From Nitrospira sp. BO4 (lineage in GTDB: Bacteria > Nitrospirota > Nitrospiria > Nitrospirales > Nitrospiraceae): a DNA stretch of 64,000 bases. Shown piece by piece: positions 10,788 to 18,382 of the stretch. Location of the stretch: the NCBI GenBank assembly GCA_030144965.1, contig JAMPUU010000018.1, positions 1 through 64,000 of the forward strand, read 5' to 3'. Position 1 is the first letter of the stretch; each line of letters starts with the position of its first letter. The notes under the pieces are model-generated. The model saw only the letters and a program-made list of their open reading frames with translations, did no database searches and was not told the origin of the DNA. A program made the position numbers and the translations under genes.

Positions 10788-11450
10788 ATGAATGTTGCTC
10801 AATCGACGATAGAGATCACCGATTTACGCTCATTCTCCTTCCAGAGATGTCCGGTCGTGGTCGTGGAGAACTTTTGGTCTGCGGAGGAACGACGATTCTT
10901 TCGTGAAGGGATGAACCAGGCGGCCTGGAAAAGTCTCTCCGATCTGCCGAACGTTCGGGACGATTTTCCCAATTCCGGCAACTGGGCAAAGGCTGAAATC
11001 GGCTCGCTGGAGGGTGAGCGGTTTCTCTCGCGGTTACAGCTTCCCTGCATTCGAGAGTGTATCGAGTCTTTCCCGAACATCGTCGGACGTCACGTGGGAT
11101 TCAGTTACTATTCGTATGCTGCAGGGGATTGTCTCTTGACTCATGATGACACGGATGAGGGGCGTCTTGTCGAGGGCCGCAGAAGGCTGCAGCGCCGCAT
11201 TGCAGTCGTCACGTATTTTCACGAAGAATGGAAGCCCGATTGGGGCGGAGAATTAATCATTTACGAGCGACGAGTAGATCGTGCTGACGGTTCCGTCAAC
11301 CTTGTCCCAATGTATTGTATCGAGCCCCGCCCCGGGTCGCTTGTGATGTTCACCGTGCCTCGATTCCATCGGGTCTGTCGTGTGGATACCATGGCGGGCC
11401 GGCATCGCCGATTGTCGATCGCCGGATGGTTCATGACAGAGCATGCCTAG
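10788..11450 (+). CDS. 2-oxoglutarate/Fe(II)-dependent oxygenase (prolyl hydroxylase-like)
   Basis: The double-stranded beta-helix iron site is visible: His119-x-Asp121 in LLTHDDTDEG, distal His194 in VPRFHRV, and the 2-oxoglutarate-binding Arg208 in RHRRLSIAGWF. GGELIIYE and PGSLVMF are typical neighbouring strands. The size (220 residues) suits SM-20/PHD-like soluble enzymes that hydroxylate proteins or small molecules. The substrate is not evident. It lies between a terminator and a convergent response-regulator gene, so it is probably monocistronic. Confidence 0.85.
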   Translation: MNVAQSTIEITDLRSFSFQRCPVVVVENFWSAEERRFFREGMNQAAWKSLSDLPNVRDDFPNSGNWAKAEIGSLEGERFLSRLQLPCIRECIESFPNIVGRHVGFSYYSYAAGDCLLTHDDTDEGRLVEGRRRLQRRIAVVTYFHEEWKPDWGGELIIYERRVDRADGSVNLVPMYCIEPRPGSLVMFTVPRFHRVCRVDTMAGRHRRLSIAGWFMTEHA

Positions 11451-12131: not shown

Positions 12132-13577
12132 TTACTCTTGAAGTCCTCGGCTCTTGAGCGCCGCAAGCCGCACCGGATCAAGACTGATGTGGAGTGATCG
12201 CTCTTGGGTGACGTTCACGGCGCCGGCTGCCTGGCCCTTTGCTTTCCTGACCCATTTGCGGCGTGTATAGATGACATCGCCCTTGCCGCTCTTCTTCAAA
12301 TCGCTATAGAGGAGGGCCAAGGTTGCCGCGTCGCGAAGGGTTTCGGGTGGGGGCTCAGTGCCTTTGGCGAGTCTCACGACGACATGAGAGCCGGGTCTGC
12401 CGCGGGCATGTAACCAGAGATCCTCACTCTTGGCCAGGCCGAACGTCAATTCATCATTCTCCCGGGCGTTGCGTCCGACGAAGATCGGGAGTCCGTCCGT
12501 CGACGTAAACCGCCGAAAGGGGCCTCGCCGGTCATTGGCTGAGCGACGTCTATCAGAAGTCGGGTAAGCAATGGTGCCGGAGGCAGGGCGGGTAGGAACT
12601 CTGGGGGCAGGCGTCCAAGTTCCTAGCTCGGTCTCTTTGAGCTCGTCACGAAGTGTATGTACCTGCTGCTCCGCCCGTTCGATGCGCGGTTTGAGCTCGC
12701 GCTCGGCAGCGAGATATTTGCGATGCTTCCGAAAGTATTCATCCATGTTGCGCTGGGCCGATTTCGTAGGATCAAGCGGAATGGATATATCGGGTAACTT
12801 GTCATCGAAGTAGTCTGTCACCTCAATATGATCAGTCCCTTTCTTGATTGAGCTGAGGTTGGCTTTGATCAATTCTCCATACCGGGCATAGTCTCGATAG
12901 GTATTCGCTTTTGACAGATCACCCCGCCAGGCCTCAATCAATCGCAGCTCTTTCTTGAGTGTTTTCTTGAGGAATCGCACGCGTACATCCTTGGCCTGAG
13001 CAATCTCTCGTGCGGCATCCTGGCGCTGGTAGTAGGCATCGATTTCCTTTGAAATCGGGAACAGGGAGCCGGCAGCTCCGGTGAATCTGGCAGGTGCGTG
13101 TTCCCGTCCGGTCGTGTGTGCTGCCGGCAACGCATAGGGTTGTCCGACAAGAGCTTGCTGGTGGAGCAGGTCCCTCAGCACTCGTCGTTCGGCATCGAGG
13201 ACCAGTACGTTGGCCCTTTTCCCGGTTAATTCACACACGATCGTCCCGGCCCCTCCCTTGCCTGTGATCTGGAGTTCAACGATACGATCATTCGAAATCT
13301 GACGAAGATCGTCGACCCTCGCTCCTCGGAAGTGAGCTCTAAGAAATTGACAGAATGGCGGAGGTGTCGAGGGATTGGGTAGTGAGCGGTCGGTGAGATG
13401 AAGACGAGCAGCTTCCGGTTCGGATGAGATAAGCAGCCGATGTGTCTGTCCGGGTACTCGAATGTCGAGCACCAACGTACAAGTTGTCGGCTGATGAATT
13501 TTCTGAATCCATCCTCCGAGTAACGACCTAGAAAGCTCCTGTACTATCTGTGACAGGTCGGAAGAGTTGAGGGTCAT
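12132..13577 (-). CDS. rqcH: RqcH/NFACT-family ribosome-associated quality control factor
   Basis: The N-terminal domain begins MTLNSSDLSQIVQELSRSLLGGWIQKIHQP, as in the NFACT (formerly fibronectin-binding A) family. A coiled-coil middle (about 185-330) follows, and then an NFACT-R (DUF814) domain with LPIFVGRNARENDELTF and SEDLWLHARGRPGSHVVVR. Members bind stalled 50S subunits and recruit tRNA-Ala to add alanine tails to stalled nascent chains. At 481 residues it is shorter than the usual 550-570, mainly in the coiled-coil part. It is divergent from the gene at 13827. Confidence 0.9.
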   Translation of the reverse strand: MTLNSSDLSQIVQELSRSLLGGWIQKIHQPTTCTLVLDIRVPGQTHRLLISSEPEAARLHLTDRSLPNPSTPPPFCQFLRAHFRGARVDDLRQISNDRIVELQITGKGGAGTIVCELTGKRANVLVLDAERRVLRDLLHQQALVGQPYALPAAHTTGREHAPARFTGAAGSLFPISKEIDAYYQRQDAAREIAQAKDVRVRFLKKTLKKELRLIEAWRGDLSKANTYRDYARYGELIKANLSSIKKGTDHIEVTDYFDDKLPDISIPLDPTKSAQRNMDEYFRKHRKYLAAERELKPRIERAEQQVHTLRDELKETELGTWTPAPRVPTRPASGTIAYPTSDRRRSANDRRGPFRRFTSTDGLPIFVGRNARENDELTFGLAKSEDLWLHARGRPGSHVVVRLAKGTEPPPETLRDAATLALLYSDLKKSGKGDVIYTRRKWVRKAKGQAAGAVNVTQERSLHISLDPVRLAALKSRGLQE

Positions 13578-13826
13578 GAGTCAGTGCCAACGCCGTTCTG
13601 TAGGTTGCGGCCTACTCGCATGGTGTCTCATACGAGCAGCCCGGGCACAAGTGTAATTGGTACGGGTAAGTGTTGTAGCGGACACTGTACGATGTGGAGT
13701 GAGAAGCCGCAAGAGCGGGACTAACTGTTTGTAATCGGCATTGCGTCCATTCAGAGCGGGTCGTATCGATGCAGAGCTCGAAGTTGCGCCCGACTTCTTA
13801 TTACGCTAGAGTCTGGGGAGCATTAC

Positions 13827-15410
13827 TTGCGTAGTCGTCCCGGTATGCTCCTTCTTGATCCGCAGCCGCTCGCGCAATTAAGAGATGAGTTTCGTCTGTC
13901 GATGCGGCGGTTGCTCATCGAGCTGTGCCAAGAACTGCATGCCGACTATTCCGATCTGGCGAGAGAGTTCTGGCTTCCCACCGGGTTCTTCGACGTCCTT
14001 CATTCAAGCCTCAAGTTAGAGACCTATTCCAGTTGGAAAGTTGTCGGGTGGATCGAAACACTCAATGATCTGGTCTATCTCCTCGATGTGCTCGGGCAAT
14101 TGAAGATGGAGCAGGATCGACCCGATTTTGCGGCGCAGTTATATGACGAATGTCAGGAGAAGTTTTTTGAACATGGCTATCTTGACGATCTCTTCCCGAC
14201 CAGGCGACCTCATGTCGGTGGACTTGAAAAGCGGTTGTTCGCTCTGTGTCGTCGGTTGGCCCAGGAATTGACCCAGGAGTCCTTGTGGTTTGACCCGGCG
14301 TCGTTGCTCAAATGGTGTGGCCAGAAGAGGATGGGACCATGGGATGTGTCGGGATCGCTGACCGATCATTTTGAGCGTGGCGAAGTCGCGGGAACGCTCG
14401 CTGGTGACCTCGATGGAGCATGGTGTTCAGCGCCGTCCCAGGTTCAACGCGCATTGCGGCAGTCGCCGGGACGCGTCACGTTTCGAGTGGAGCCGACCGG
14501 CATCACTGTGAAGGTCGGAAAGACCGTATCCTCAATCTGGTCGAGATGGGGAGAAAAGGGGCGATGGGAGTGGACCTACCATTCACCTGTGGTTGCCATC
14601 CAAAACGAGAACAACCCAATCACCGTCGGCCCATCCCTTGTCTACGGAAAGGATCGCCAGCCGAAGACAATGAAGCTCACGGCACGGCGACAGGTGGAGC
14701 GCATCGCCGGCGCCTGGCGGACCATCCAGTGCGCTTGGCCGGAAGGCCATGAAGTGTTGGCACTATTGACCTCGCGGATTGTTCCACTCCGGGCAAAGGG
14801 CGTGGTCAGTTTCAGCTATCGGCATCGGCCTGGGCTGTCCTTCATCAACTGTTTCGACCGCGGCAATCTGGATTTGATCGACGATCTTGTTCATGAGAAT
14901 AGCCATCACCATTTGAATCTCCTGCTGCGCAAGCATGTCATGTTTTTGGGCGACCATAATCAGCAGATCTTCTATTCGCCTTGGCGGCGGAGCCTTCGCC
15001 CCCTACGCGGTATTCTTCATGCCACGTTCACGTTTACCATGGGTGCGCTCTTGTTCGAGCGGCTCGTGTCCTGGTCCGCAGGGCGAGACGGGGCAAAAAG
15101 ATGGAAGAGCGCGGGGCTCACCCGGCGAGACCTGCAACGAGCGCGATTTCGTTGCTTGGAGGAGGTCGAGTCCGTCCGCTACTCGCTACAAGACCTGCAC
15201 TATGCCGATCATCATCTCGGGTGGCTCACCGGTTCAGGTCAGCGCTTAGTCGGACAGCTGGAGGAAGCCATCAATCACGTCGAGCGAGAGAGCAAGCGAT
15301 TCAAGCGCGATGTGGATCGTTCCAAGTTCGGCCCGACACTACGGAAACATATCAAAGAGCTCCAGCAAGCCCGCCAAACCTACGGACCGGTGAAGCTCAG
15401 CAAGGCGTAG
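13827..15410 (+). CDS. HExxH-motif protein, putative aKG-type peptide beta-hydroxylase
   Basis: The central block has the pattern I associate with the HEXXH-motif (aKG-HExxH) peptide-modifying family: FSYRHRPGLSFINCFDRGN, then LVHENSHHHLNLLL with His356, Glu357 and His360, then IFYSPWRRSLRPLRGILHAT. Known members hydroxylate beta-carbons in ribosomal peptides. The first 300 residues are helical and unassigned. TTG 13827 has GGGGAG eight bases upstream; ATG 13845 has none. No peptide precursor or maturase gene is adjacent. Family membership is recalled from sequence pattern, and the substrate is unknown. Confidence 0.7.
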   Translation: MRSRPGMLLLDPQPLAQLRDEFRLSMRRLLIELCQELHADYSDLAREFWLPTGFFDVLHSSLKLETYSSWKVVGWIETLNDLVYLLDVLGQLKMEQDRPDFAAQLYDECQEKFFEHGYLDDLFPTRRPHVGGLEKRLFALCRRLAQELTQESLWFDPASLLKWCGQKRMGPWDVSGSLTDHFERGEVAGTLAGDLDGAWCSAPSQVQRALRQSPGRVTFRVEPTGITVKVGKTVSSIWSRWGEKGRWEWTYHSPVVAIQNENNPITVGPSLVYGKDRQPKTMKLTARRQVERIAGAWRTIQCAWPEGHEVLALLTSRIVPLRAKGVVSFSYRHRPGLSFINCFDRGNLDLIDDLVHENSHHHLNLLLRKHVMFLGDHNQQIFYSPWRRSLRPLRGILHATFTFTMGALLFERLVSWSAGRDGAKRWKSAGLTRRDLQRARFRCLEEVESVRYSLQDLHYADHHLGWLTGSGQRLVGQLEEAINHVERESKRFKRDVDRSKFGPTLRKHIKELQQARQTYGPVKLSKA

Positions 15411-15458: not shown

Positions 15459-16538
15459 CTACGGTTCCACCGTCACATCCACAAAGGCCGGCAAGCTATC
15501 CGCTCCCTTTTTATCCGTCACCCGTAGTTTGAAGCGGTAGGTACGTGGTTCTGAAACCAACGGTGCTAGGAAGGAGGCCTCTGAGTTGTTGGCATCAAGG
15601 AGGGAGACTTTGCTGCCGCGTACTTGGCTCCAACTATAGTACAAGGCCTCGCCCTCCGGGTCGCGGCTTTTGAGGCCGCTCAGTTTCACTCTGGAGCCGG
15701 CCTTGACCGACTTGTTCGTCCCAGCGTCGGCGATCGGCGGGTCGTTTGGTTCATCGTTCACATTCACGTCCACGTCAAGAGAGCCTTGTTTGCCTCGATT
15801 GGTGACGGTGATGGTGGTCTTTCCATTGCCGACAATCTGAAGCAGGCCGGCCTTCACAATCTTAATGACTTTGTCATTGGATGATGTGTAGCTGGTGCCG
15901 CTGGCCGGTGTGCTGATACCCCGGGTGACGCCGTCGGCGAAATCGCCGACAACCGGGAGTTCAAAAACCTTGCCCAGCGAATCGACGTGGCCGAACGCGG
16001 AGGATTGTCCTGCCCGTCCCAGTTGCAAAGGTTTATCCGTCTCAAAATCAATGGCAGTGAGGGCGGCAGTCGGTTCCACATTTACGATCACCTCGTCGAA
16101 AATCGATCGCGTGCCCAACCGCCCGCGGGAGATTTCGGCCACGGCCAATAATCGCATCGGTCCGATGCCGTCGTGAGGCACTTTCAGCGGACCGCCAAAG
16201 GCGGGGTCCTGTTCAGGCAGTCCAATCATGGCCACGGGCGCCACGATCGAACCGGTGGCCGTCGAATCATCCTGTTCGACCAGTGTGTCGTCCTGCTCGC
16301 CGTACCAATAATAGCGGACCTTGACGAGACCCATGTCTTTTCCCAAATCCACACGGGCCGTAACAGTGCTTCCTGACGTGACCGTGGACCCTTCCTTCGG
16401 CCACGCGATATTGAAGGCGAACGACTGTCCAGTCAGGAAACTAAAGTAAAGCGTGAAGATGAATAGTTTGACGAGAAGGGGAGAGAAGAGGTTGCTCTCA
16501 ACCTGATGGCAGTTCACGTTAAGCTTTCTATGACCCAC
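15459..16538 (-). CDS. Secreted Ig/PKD-like beta-domain protein
   Basis: A hydrophobic leader (LLVKLFIFTLYFSFLTGQSFAF) is followed by a domain starting NIAWPKEGSTVTSGSTVTARV. A Big-type segment (KTTITVTNRGKQGSLDVDV) comes next, and then a C-terminal PKD-like domain (IADAGTNKSVKAGSRVKLSG, later YRFKLRVTDKKGADS). These are beta-sandwich modules of envelope or surface proteins. The frame extends up to 16649 inside the neighbouring gene, but GTG 16538, or GTG 16517, right after that gene's stop is more plausible, close enough for translational coupling. The function is unknown. Confidence 0.7.
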   Translation of the reverse strand: MGHRKLNVNCHQVESNLFSPLLVKLFIFTLYFSFLTGQSFAFNIAWPKEGSTVTSGSTVTARVDLGKDMGLVKVRYYWYGEQDDTLVEQDDSTATGSIVAPVAMIGLPEQDPAFGGPLKVPHDGIGPMRLLAVAEISRGRLGTRSIFDEVIVNVEPTAALTAIDFETDKPLQLGRAGQSSAFGHVDSLGKVFELPVVGDFADGVTRGISTPASGTSYTSSNDKVIKIVKAGLLQIVGNGKTTITVTNRGKQGSLDVDVNVNDEPNDPPIADAGTNKSVKAGSRVKLSGLKSRDPEGEALYYSWSQVRGSKVSLLDANNSEASFLAPLVSEPRTYRFKLRVTDKKGADSLPAFVDVTVEP

Positions 16539-16540
16539 AC

Positions 16541-18355
16541 TCACCTTGTCAGGTGGTACGGGACATCGGTGAGAATGACGCGGTCTTTGAAGAGCAGTGC
16601 GGCTTTGAGCATCAGCGCCCGCTGATTGTGCAGGATATTCTGCCACCACCTGGCAGGAAGAATCTCCGGGATCACGACGGTCACCCAGGTGTTCGGGTCT
16701 TTCTCCAGTACTTCCTCGATGTAATCAAGCAGCGATCCCAGGATTGAGCGGTAAGGGGAAGACAGAGCGATCAAATTGACCCCACCACCCCATTGGGCCC
16801 ACTGAATCTTGACCTTGGCGCTTTCTTCCGGGTCAAGGTCCACATAGACGGCACGAACCTCACCAGGTCGACTTCTGGCATAGTCCAATGCTCGGACGAC
16901 GGCGCGATTCAAGCCGCTGATCGGGATGATCACGATATTGCGACGGGGCAATGGAGGCCGTTCCCCTCGACGGTCCAGTGCGATCTGCTCCGTGACGGCC
17001 TTGTAGTGCGAGCGAATCCCTTGAAACATCAGAAGAAGGACGGCGATGAGCAGGAACACGATCCAGGCGCCCTGCGTGAACTTGGTGCTGGCGATGATGA
17101 TGGTCGCGATACCGGTAGTCAGGGCGCCGGCCCCATTGACGATCAGTTTGGTCTGCCAGTGCGGGCCTTTCTTGACGAGCCACCGTTTCACCATGCCGGC
17201 TTGGGAGAGGGTGAACGACATGAACACGCCGATGGCATACAATGGAATCAGCGCGTGAGTATCCCCTTCAAATACGACAAGCAAGAGGCAGGCGAAGACT
17301 CCGAGAATGATGATACCGTTTGAGAAGACCAGGCGATCACCGAACGTGGCCATCTGATGGGGCATGAATCCGTCCCGCGCCAGGATCGACGCCAGGTTCG
17401 GGAAGCCTGCGAAGGCGCTGTTCGCCGCCAGCACCAACAATGCCATAGTGCCGATCTGAACCGCATAATAGATGAGCCCAGTGCCGAACGTGACGCGAGC
17501 CAATTGCGAGACTACCGTTTCATCCACCTTGGCCAGGATGCCGTAGTGATAGGCCATCCAGCTGATCCCCATGAACAGCGATGCCAGGATCGTGGACATC
17601 CAGACCATGGTGATTGCGGCATTTTGGGATTCCGGGGCTCGAAAGGCTCTTACCCCGTTTGAAATGACTTCCATGCCAGTGACCGTCGAACAGCCTACAG
17701 CAAAGGCTCGAAGCACTAAGAATAGGGTAAGAGTTTCTGTTTCCATAGGGTGTGTCGGAGGGGGAGGGGATCCGGAGTAGGAGAGGGACCGAACTGTACC
17801 CACGATGACAAGGAGGCCCAGCGCTCCAATGGCAAAATAGGTTGGGACGGCGAAGAACTTTCCTGATTCGCGAACCCCGCGCAGATTCATCACGATCATG
17901 AAGAGAATGGCGACAAGGCCCAAGGCTTCGCGATGGATGAACAGACTCGGGATGGCCGACGTGAGTGCCGCGATGCCTGCCGCCACGCTGACGGCCACAG
18001 TCAAGACATAATCGATCATCAGGGCCGCCGCAGCCACCAGGGCCGGTATATCGCCCAGGTTGGATCGGGCAACCACGTATGCACCGCCCCCCTGCGGATA
18101 TTCATAAATGATCTGGCGATAGGAGATGGTCAAGACCAAGATCAAGAAAAGAATGGCCAGACTGACCGGGATCGACCAGGCGACTGCGGCAGTTCCGGCG
18201 AGCATGAGCACGAGCAGGATTTCTTCGGTCCCATAAGCGACGGAGGAAATGGCATTCGATGAGAAGATGGCAAGGGCGATCGTTTTCGATAGCCGTTCGT
18301 GCCTTGCTTGAGCAGTCTTGAGCGGATCTCCGACGAGCCAGCGTTTCAGGATCAT
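16541..18355 (-). CDS. KimA-type potassium importer (APC superfamily)
   Basis: About twelve membrane segments are followed by a cytosolic tail of about 150 residues. The match to the B. subtilis KimA pattern is close: KTIALAIFSSNAISSVAYGTE, ISYRQIIYEYPQGGGAYVVA, VLAANSAFAGFPNLA, DRLVFSNGIIILG, and a C-terminal UspA-like domain ending near HNQRALMLKAALLFKD. KimA proteins are proton-coupled K+ symporters, often controlled by cyclic di-AMP. ATG 18355 aligns with the family start; an upstream TTG at 18382 is possible. A general amino-acid permease is the alternative, but the tail argues for KimA. Confidence 0.82.
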   Translation of the reverse strand: MILKRWLVGDPLKTAQARHERLSKTIALAIFSSNAISSVAYGTEEILLVLMLAGTAAVAWSIPVSLAILFLILVLTISYRQIIYEYPQGGGAYVVARSNLGDIPALVAAAALMIDYVLTVAVSVAAGIAALTSAIPSLFIHREALGLVAILFMIVMNLRGVRESGKFFAVPTYFAIGALGLLVIVGTVRSLSYSGSPPPPTHPMETETLTLFLVLRAFAVGCSTVTGMEVISNGVRAFRAPESQNAAITMVWMSTILASLFMGISWMAYHYGILAKVDETVVSQLARVTFGTGLIYYAVQIGTMALLVLAANSAFAGFPNLASILARDGFMPHQMATFGDRLVFSNGIIILGVFACLLLVVFEGDTHALIPLYAIGVFMSFTLSQAGMVKRWLVKKGPHWQTKLIVNGAGALTTGIATIIIASTKFTQGAWIVFLLIAVLLLMFQGIRSHYKAVTEQIALDRRGERPPLPRRNIVIIPISGLNRAVVRALDYARSRPGEVRAVYVDLDPEESAKVKIQWAQWGGGVNLIALSSPYRSILGSLLDYIEEVLEKDPNTWVTVVIPEILPARWWQNILHNQRALMLKAALLFKDRVILTDVPYHLTR

Positions 18356-18382
18356 GGAGGGATTATCGCATAAACTTCCCAA

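Follow-up and report, generated by a model that had tools for sequence, protein, structure and literature searches.

A predicted alphaKG-HExxH-type protein with a ChlH-like fold, encoded outside RiPP clusters by a core gene of Nitrospira and its relatives

The window analysed here, a stretch of 64,000 nucleotides from Nitrospira sp. BO4 (assembly GCA_030144965.1, contig JAMPUU010000018.1, positions 1 to 64,000 of the forward strand), carries a gene at 13827-15410 whose product is, as judged from its sequence and structure model, a protein of the alpha-ketoglutarate (alphaKG)-HExxH type with a ChlH-like fold. The gene belongs to the core gene set of a single bacterial family, that of Nitrospira and its relatives. 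We consider it likely that the product is a stand-alone Fe(II)/2-oxoglutarate oxygenase, gained once and vertically inherited since, which would probably modify one conserved cellular protein or peptide. The alphaKG-HExxH members known so far from the papers described below make ribosomally synthesised and post-translationally modified peptides (RiPPs), whereas the present one, carried by nearly the whole family, stands alone.

Gene, family and fold

The gene and the parts of its product are as follows, with open reading frame abbreviated as ORF.

13827..15410, + strand: predicted alphaKG-HExxH oxygenase gene (ORF, TIGR04267, match to ChlH 8s5f, AlphaFold2 model and fold match)
13845..14324, + strand: N-terminal helical domain, residues 1-160 (50% mean pairwise identity among 19 sequences; inside the range aligned with ChlH and SjiH)
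14325..14684, + strand: beta-rich insert, residues 161-280 (evolves fast, with a mean identity of 34%; two genera have a shorter version)
14769..15068, + strand: predicted catalytic core, residues 309-408 (contains SYRHRPGLSFIN, HENSHHHLNLLLR and SPWRRSLRPLRGILHATFTF)

The frame is open throughout and codes for 527 amino acids when counted from a TTG codon, with GGGGAG at 13815-13820, 6 nucleotides 5' of this start. The start conserved among homologues is the ATG at 13845, giving 521 amino acids. All residue numbers used here refer to this shorter form, in which HENSH covers residues 350-354 and PWRRSLRPLRG residues 379-389. A chance ORF is far from likely, given homologues in 22 genera with about 48-80% identity and the motif intact in those that were aligned. 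Promoter and terminator scans around the gene gave scores at or below the level of shuffled sequence, and a search of Rfam gave no match.

A preliminary description of this locus had placed the protein in the HExxH peptide-modifying family on the basis of HENSH and the PWRRSLRPLRG stretch, and this placement is borne out by a family model, by sequence comparison and by fold. The NCBIfam model TIGR04267 (aKG-HExxH-type peptide beta-hydroxylase; IPR026337) matches with 72.1 bits against a curated cut-off of 40 (E 5.3e-20), and matches above the cut-off were found in 21 of the 39 genomes searched. Pfam gave nothing for this protein at E<=1. When PDB sequences were searched with phmmer, ChlH (8s5f, E 1.4e-8) and the protein of 22nu/22ob (E 6e-4) were found, and the alignment pairs HENSH with HEHRH and SPWRRSLRPLRGILHATFTF with SPWREDLRPPSGLLHAIFVF; a profile search was also run.

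A structure model was calculated with AlphaFold2 from 46 aligned homologues (pLDDT 86.4, pTM 0.85). The only PDB matches returned by Foldseek at E<=0.001 were 22ob (E 4.8e-9) and four chains of 8s5f (E 3.6e-7). VIA-align 2 gave Z 22.4 over 289 residues at 3.7 A for 8s5f, and Z 20.4 over 376 residues at 4.9 A for 22ob (SjiH), while the next row had Z 9.8 and lay over a helical bundle. No peptidase chain was among the matches listed for the whole-model structural comparison. The structural alignments span residue 1 to 480 or 504 of the Nitrospira protein, so that the N-terminal helical part is also within the ChlH-like architecture. The beta insert was additionally modelled alone (pLDDT 88). It gave no match to known folds at E<=0.001, the best row being the equivalent part of SjiH at Z 4.5, which is below significance.

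Conservation and proposed mechanism

Conservation was measured as mean pairwise identity in an alignment of 19 sequences from 12 genera. Identity is 88% over residues 309-364 and 91% over residues 376-408. Outside this core it is 50% in the N-terminal part, 34% in the insert, 71% for residues 426-452 and 48% at the C-terminus, and the non-core parts are mostly 29-50% identical between genera. H350, E351, H354, R381, R385 and H392 are identical throughout these 19, and the HExxH residues are also among the invariant columns of the 46-sequence alignment. Taking the best segment of 56 residues for each protein encoded at the same loci, the HExxH protein reaches 91%, higher than the products of the neighbouring rqcH (86%), APC permease (84%) and PKD-domain protein (82%) genes. 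In a comparison with four further HExxH proteins from the phylum, the positions of HE..H and of SP..R..RP..G are kept and little else. Read as a sequence pattern, this conservation says that the protein should be an active enzyme acting on a constant substrate.

In the mechanism that we propose, the two histidines of HENSH would bind iron, as homology to ChlH suggests, with H392 or E440 as a conserved candidate for the third iron ligand. R381 and R385, likewise selected by conservation, are candidate contacts of 2-oxoglutarate. The nearly invariant SYRHRPGLSFIN and NSHHHLN stretches would form the lining of a pocket that a polypeptide segment enters. There, following the chemistry of the family, the segment would be hydroxylated, probably at a beta-carbon.

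Distribution across genomes

The Nitrospira family includes main nitrite oxidisers as well as comammox bacteria. At the genus level the gene is found in 55 of 59 sampled genomes, including all 37 good ones. For the whole family it is found in 161 of 175 genomes (112 of the 114 good ones, and 22/22 genera), where any match at E<=0.001 was counted and partial genes at contig ends were included. A match is present in 80 of the 295 genomes of the phylum, all but three of them within the family. These three matches are weak (E 1e-6 to 1e-7), C-terminal and located in shorter frames, and beyond the family the phylum yielded only different HExxH proteins.

Outside the phylum, a scan of GTDB species genomes and 14 control genomes were covered. 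The scan returned 116 relatives, and the 80 that were listed include N. moscoviensis and N. defluvii and bear Nitrospira, Nitrospiraceae, Nitrospirae or Nitrospirota names, with one Nitrosospira exception. A single match, below the cut-off, came from the control genomes (Haloferax volcanii). Extra matches in some genomes of the family are mostly pieces of split genes; two genomes, G018 and G252 (G and L numbers denote the genomes and loci of our set), have a second, different HExxH protein besides the core gene. A mobile origin was rejected, as no homologue was found in plasmids, phages or viral contigs.

Genomic neighbourhood

The following neighbours of the gene were annotated in the window.

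12132..13577, - strand: rqcH-type NFACT gene, divergent neighbour (Pfam NFACT_N E 2.8e-66, and NFACT-R)
15459..16649, - strand: PKD-domain protein gene, convergent neighbour (K319L-like_PKD E 3.5e-15)
16541..18382, - strand: APC amino-acid permease gene, syntenic (AA_permease_2 E 2.5e-24)
10788..11450, + strand: second oxygenase gene, 2OG-FeII_Oxy_4 (E 1.4e-18)

The divergent rqcH pointed out in the preliminary description is thus a real NFACT gene. Its conservation was examined over 106 loci, and the counts below are counts of loci, a few genomes being present twice (for example L071/L167 and L078/L144). A divergent rqcH lies within 3 kilobases (kb), always on the opposite strand, in 79 of the 89 loci with enough flank. 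A convergent PKD gene is found within 6 kb in 67/76 loci and the APC gene within 7 kb in 65/72 loci. As these two are kept about as often on the other side, rqcH is one syntenic neighbour among several.

No rqcH neighbour is present at ten of the loci that have enough flank, and in seven of them a BFN-domain gene is found directly upstream in the same direction, itself preceded by an MBL-fold gene. Adjacency of BFN and HExxH genes occurs in ten genera in all. In five genomes with this arrangement that were tested (G114, G191, G276, G319 and G324) rqcH is on another contig, and in G212 the HExxH gene is present and rqcH is absent. The conserved neighbours of the core gene are rqcH, PKD, APC, BFN and MBL; conserved ancestral linkage together with co-occurrence, as for a partner of RqcH, was not found over these loci.

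Several further observations were made around the gene. The rqcH-type protein of the window has 481 amino acids and matches positions 4-142 and 281-417 of the NFACT_N profile, the stretch between being unmatched. The 2OG-FeII_Oxy_4 gene, which belongs to a different family from the HExxH gene, lies about 2.4 kb upstream; in 37 of 82 loci it is found within 6 kb and reads the same way. Upstream of the HExxH gene and in its direction, 36 loci encode a small CxxC...CxxC protein (CTRCxGLMVxDxLxDLQES; zinc-ribbon-like), for example between rqcH and HExxH at L128:8638-8865 (+). In many genomes the gap between the HExxH and PKD genes holds differing antitoxin-like small genes (e.g. L141:11355-11582 and L121:11974-12171), which makes it look like an insertion hotspot.

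History of the locus

An outgroup family of the same order was used to reconstruct the locus. It provides 14 loci with a BFN homologue, none of them with the HExxH gene. PKD directly follows BFN, tail to tail, in 12 of these 14 loci (only 2 bases separate the stop codons in G119), and in the remaining two, from one genus, PKD was not seen in the short flank. Within the family, loci with rqcH next to HExxH still have BFN on the upstream side, in the same orientation, whenever both are on one contig. In G058, which belongs to the species of the window, 37 kb then separate BFN from HExxH. The gap is 39-41 kb for G024, G053, G197 and G202 and 56 kb for G109, and it reaches about 135-139 kb for G288 and G338.

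Protein distances were compared at 27 of the 106 loci, those where all four proteins had more than 85% coverage and no stop. The distances of the HExxH protein correlate with those of rqcH (rho 0.83) and PKD (0.85) and less well with those of APC (0.56), and the agreement with rqcH and PKD is as expected from vertical descent.

The simplest history starts with a single insertion of the HExxH gene into the BFN-PKD junction, at the base of the family. In the lineage that includes Nitrospira, a large segment carrying rqcH at one end later came to lie between BFN and HExxH. The order of these two steps is taken from the outgroup arrangement, not from a species tree. With the empty BFN-PKD site in the outgroup, the rqcH neighbourhood is derived, and the adjacency to rqcH came about later, by chance, through genome rearrangement.

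Upstream of MBL-BFN in the outgroup genome G119, we also noted genes reading as the small and large subunits of glutamate synthase (L209:9626-15632, - strand), and genes of similar size lie upstream in L079 and L083.

RiPP context

The preliminary description had stated that no RiPP precursor, leader-binding or export gene is near, and had proposed a search for short ORFs around homologues. Here, 5633 short ORFs within 4 kb of the gene in the 106 loci were clustered, and the 18 largest clusters were read. None of these 18 contains a precursor-like ORF. They consist of the zinc-ribbon ORF, of AbrB-like and ribbon-helix-helix-like antitoxin ORFs (names given by reading), and of apparent antisense or shadow frames. 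No leader-binding gene was found beside the HExxH gene, and no radical SAM gene, MNIO or other maturase gene, or exporter with a precursor was found near the core gene. Some of the genomes do have an ABC-2 type permease and an ABC ATPase 4-6 kb upstream, in a syntenic block with cytochrome- and moeA-like genes and without a precursor. In the neighbourhood survey the homologues did not lie in RiPP clusters, and their HExxH residues are kept, so that neither of the two outcomes named in that description as refuting it occurred.

As a contrast set we used four of the five other HExxH matches in the phylum (L088, L089, L179 and L180; G311 was left out), whose proteins are all above the TIGR04267 cut-off. 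All four genes directly adjoin a radical-SAM-type gene, whereas the core gene does not. The radical SAM assignment is based on models for L088 and L179, on clustering with the L088 protein plus a CxxxCxxC motif for L089, and on CxxxCxxC only for L180. At L088:5411-9527 and L179:5497-8327 the HExxH gene stands beside radical-SAM/SPASM maturases (HxsB-like and YhhB/FxsB-like), which are ordinary RiPP-type clusters. Near the second HExxH gene of G252, the ORF at L089:12902-13609 (-) carries a repeated GVHVNSGPPGFVNGGGHANFDPA unit and is a possible multi-core RiPP precursor.

Substrate and alternative explanations

A near-constant core over 12 genera, with no precursor, partner enzyme or dedicated exporter nearby, makes one conserved cellular protein or peptide the most likely substrate, rather than a variable RiPP. 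The earlier suggestion of a substrate outside classic RiPP biosynthesis therefore holds as the likeliest reading. Its other half, in which rqcH served as the pointer to nascent chains, does not, with PKD and APC kept about equally often, ten loci without the rqcH neighbour, a genome (G212) without rqcH altogether, and an ancestral position between BFN and PKD.

Four points weigh against a conserved cellular substrate for a uniformly retained oxygenase. First, H392 is not found superfamily-wide, as SjiH has Gln and one relative has Asp at this position, which leaves the iron-ligand set uncertain. Second, two good genomes of the family, G240 and G225, have no match. In G225 the rqcH and PKD proteins are without matches as well, so that an assembly gap is possible. 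In G240 contig ends and inserts are found at the expected HExxH site, and in both genomes the missing match may reflect an assembly gap or a local rearrangement. Third, PflC, a zincin-like relative, hydrolyses a peptide without leader (PMC12636437). Fourth, RiPP precursors are sometimes encoded away from their enzymes, as the split pathways described in the same paper indicate (PMC12636437).

On the two sides of the G240 site, an ABC-transporter-like gene follows the lipoprotein-like gene that adjoins rqcH (L178:1-7000), and nuclease-like and Fic/Doc-like genes, named by reading their sequences, follow PKD near a contig end, where the site is disrupted (L214:8200-10818).

The main rival is an orphan RiPP pathway, where the enzyme would tailor a true precursor encoded, like its exporter, at another place in the chromosome. 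Besides the split pathways, it can draw on the fact that the characterised members described in PMC12636437, PMC13060819 and PMC12707348 all act on a RiPP precursor. We nevertheless hold it to be unlikely, as the 18 largest short-ORF clusters from the 4-kb surroundings of the gene gave no precursor-like ORF, as near-universal presence and a frozen core are unlike patchily distributed tailoring genes, and as the four other HExxH genes of the phylum keep their radical-SAM-type neighbours.

HENSH could also be the hydrolytic site of a zinc-type peptidase, HExxH being the classic zincin motif and PflC being described to hydrolyse a truncated substrate with several metals (PMC12636437). However, the best matches in sequence and fold are the oxygenase ChlH and the related SjiH, with a wide margin over all other rows, and the PWR..RP..G segment common to the oxygenase family is invariant here, which renders a peptidase improbable. 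Slightly less probable still is an oxygenase that has lost its peptide-binding role and acts on a free amino acid or another small molecule. A frozen core would suit a small metabolite too, and there is an amino-acid permease nearby and, in some genomes, glutamate-synthase-like genes (by reading); but no metabolic operon accompanies the gene in all genomes, and the relatives of known function in the three papers just named act on peptides. The least probable explanation, a partner of RqcH that hydroxylates stalled nascent chains, their tails or a ribosomal component during ribosome-associated quality control, would account for the divergent rqcH and the correlated distances, and was rejected on neighbour synteny (with PKD distances correlating equally), G212, BFN adjacency and the empty site of the outgroup.

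Comparison with known systems

Published alphaKG-HExxH members are described to hydroxylate residues of RiPP precursors, namely Asp and His, consecutive Gln (where the backbone is also cleaved) and Pro (PMC12636437, PMC13060819), and an HExxH gene is reported in about 75% of pes-like clusters (PMC13060819). The highest Z score in the structural comparison belongs to the ChlH domain of ChlB (8s5f), described as an alphaKG-HExxH beta-hydroxylase of Asp and His in a cyclophane RiPP. It shares the HExxH motif, the SPWR..LRP..G..H segment and the fold over residues 1-480 (with the Z of 22.4 over 289 residues given above), whereas the Nitrospira protein is a separate protein, about 150 residues longer, with no radical SAM gene adjoining. 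SjiH (22nu/22ob, Ni form) gives the longest structural alignment, including a small beta region at the site of the Nitrospira insert; it differs in the Gln at the H392 position, and its PDB entry is named radical SAM core domain-containing protein. The papers that a literature search on SjiH gave were unrelated. PflC/PosC, PesO and BipH/BpmH are unfused HExxH enzymes that belong to the same family by their authors' description. Unlike the Nitrospira gene, their genes are described as located with precursor, MNIO or other tailoring genes.

Among the literature matches listed, titles and the beginnings of abstracts showed no relevant paper on protein hydroxylation, or on HExxH, RiPP or rqcH work, in Nitrospira. 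A member that is kept throughout a family, with a frozen core and apart from such clusters, would be a concrete case for HExxH chemistry on ordinary cellular proteins. The YcfD-type ribosomal oxygenases have a JmjC fold, unrelated to the fold of the Nitrospira enzyme. In their case a 2-oxoglutarate oxygenase acts on a cellular protein, which would be the same idea (PMC4295552, PMC5862935). More tentatively than the reading of a conserved cellular substrate itself, we put forward that a RiPP-type oxygenase fold may have turned into a housekeeping protein hydroxylase, setting an oxygen-dependent hydroxyl mark on one fixed target throughout the family, as a new-fold counterpart of the JmjC ribosomal oxygenases.
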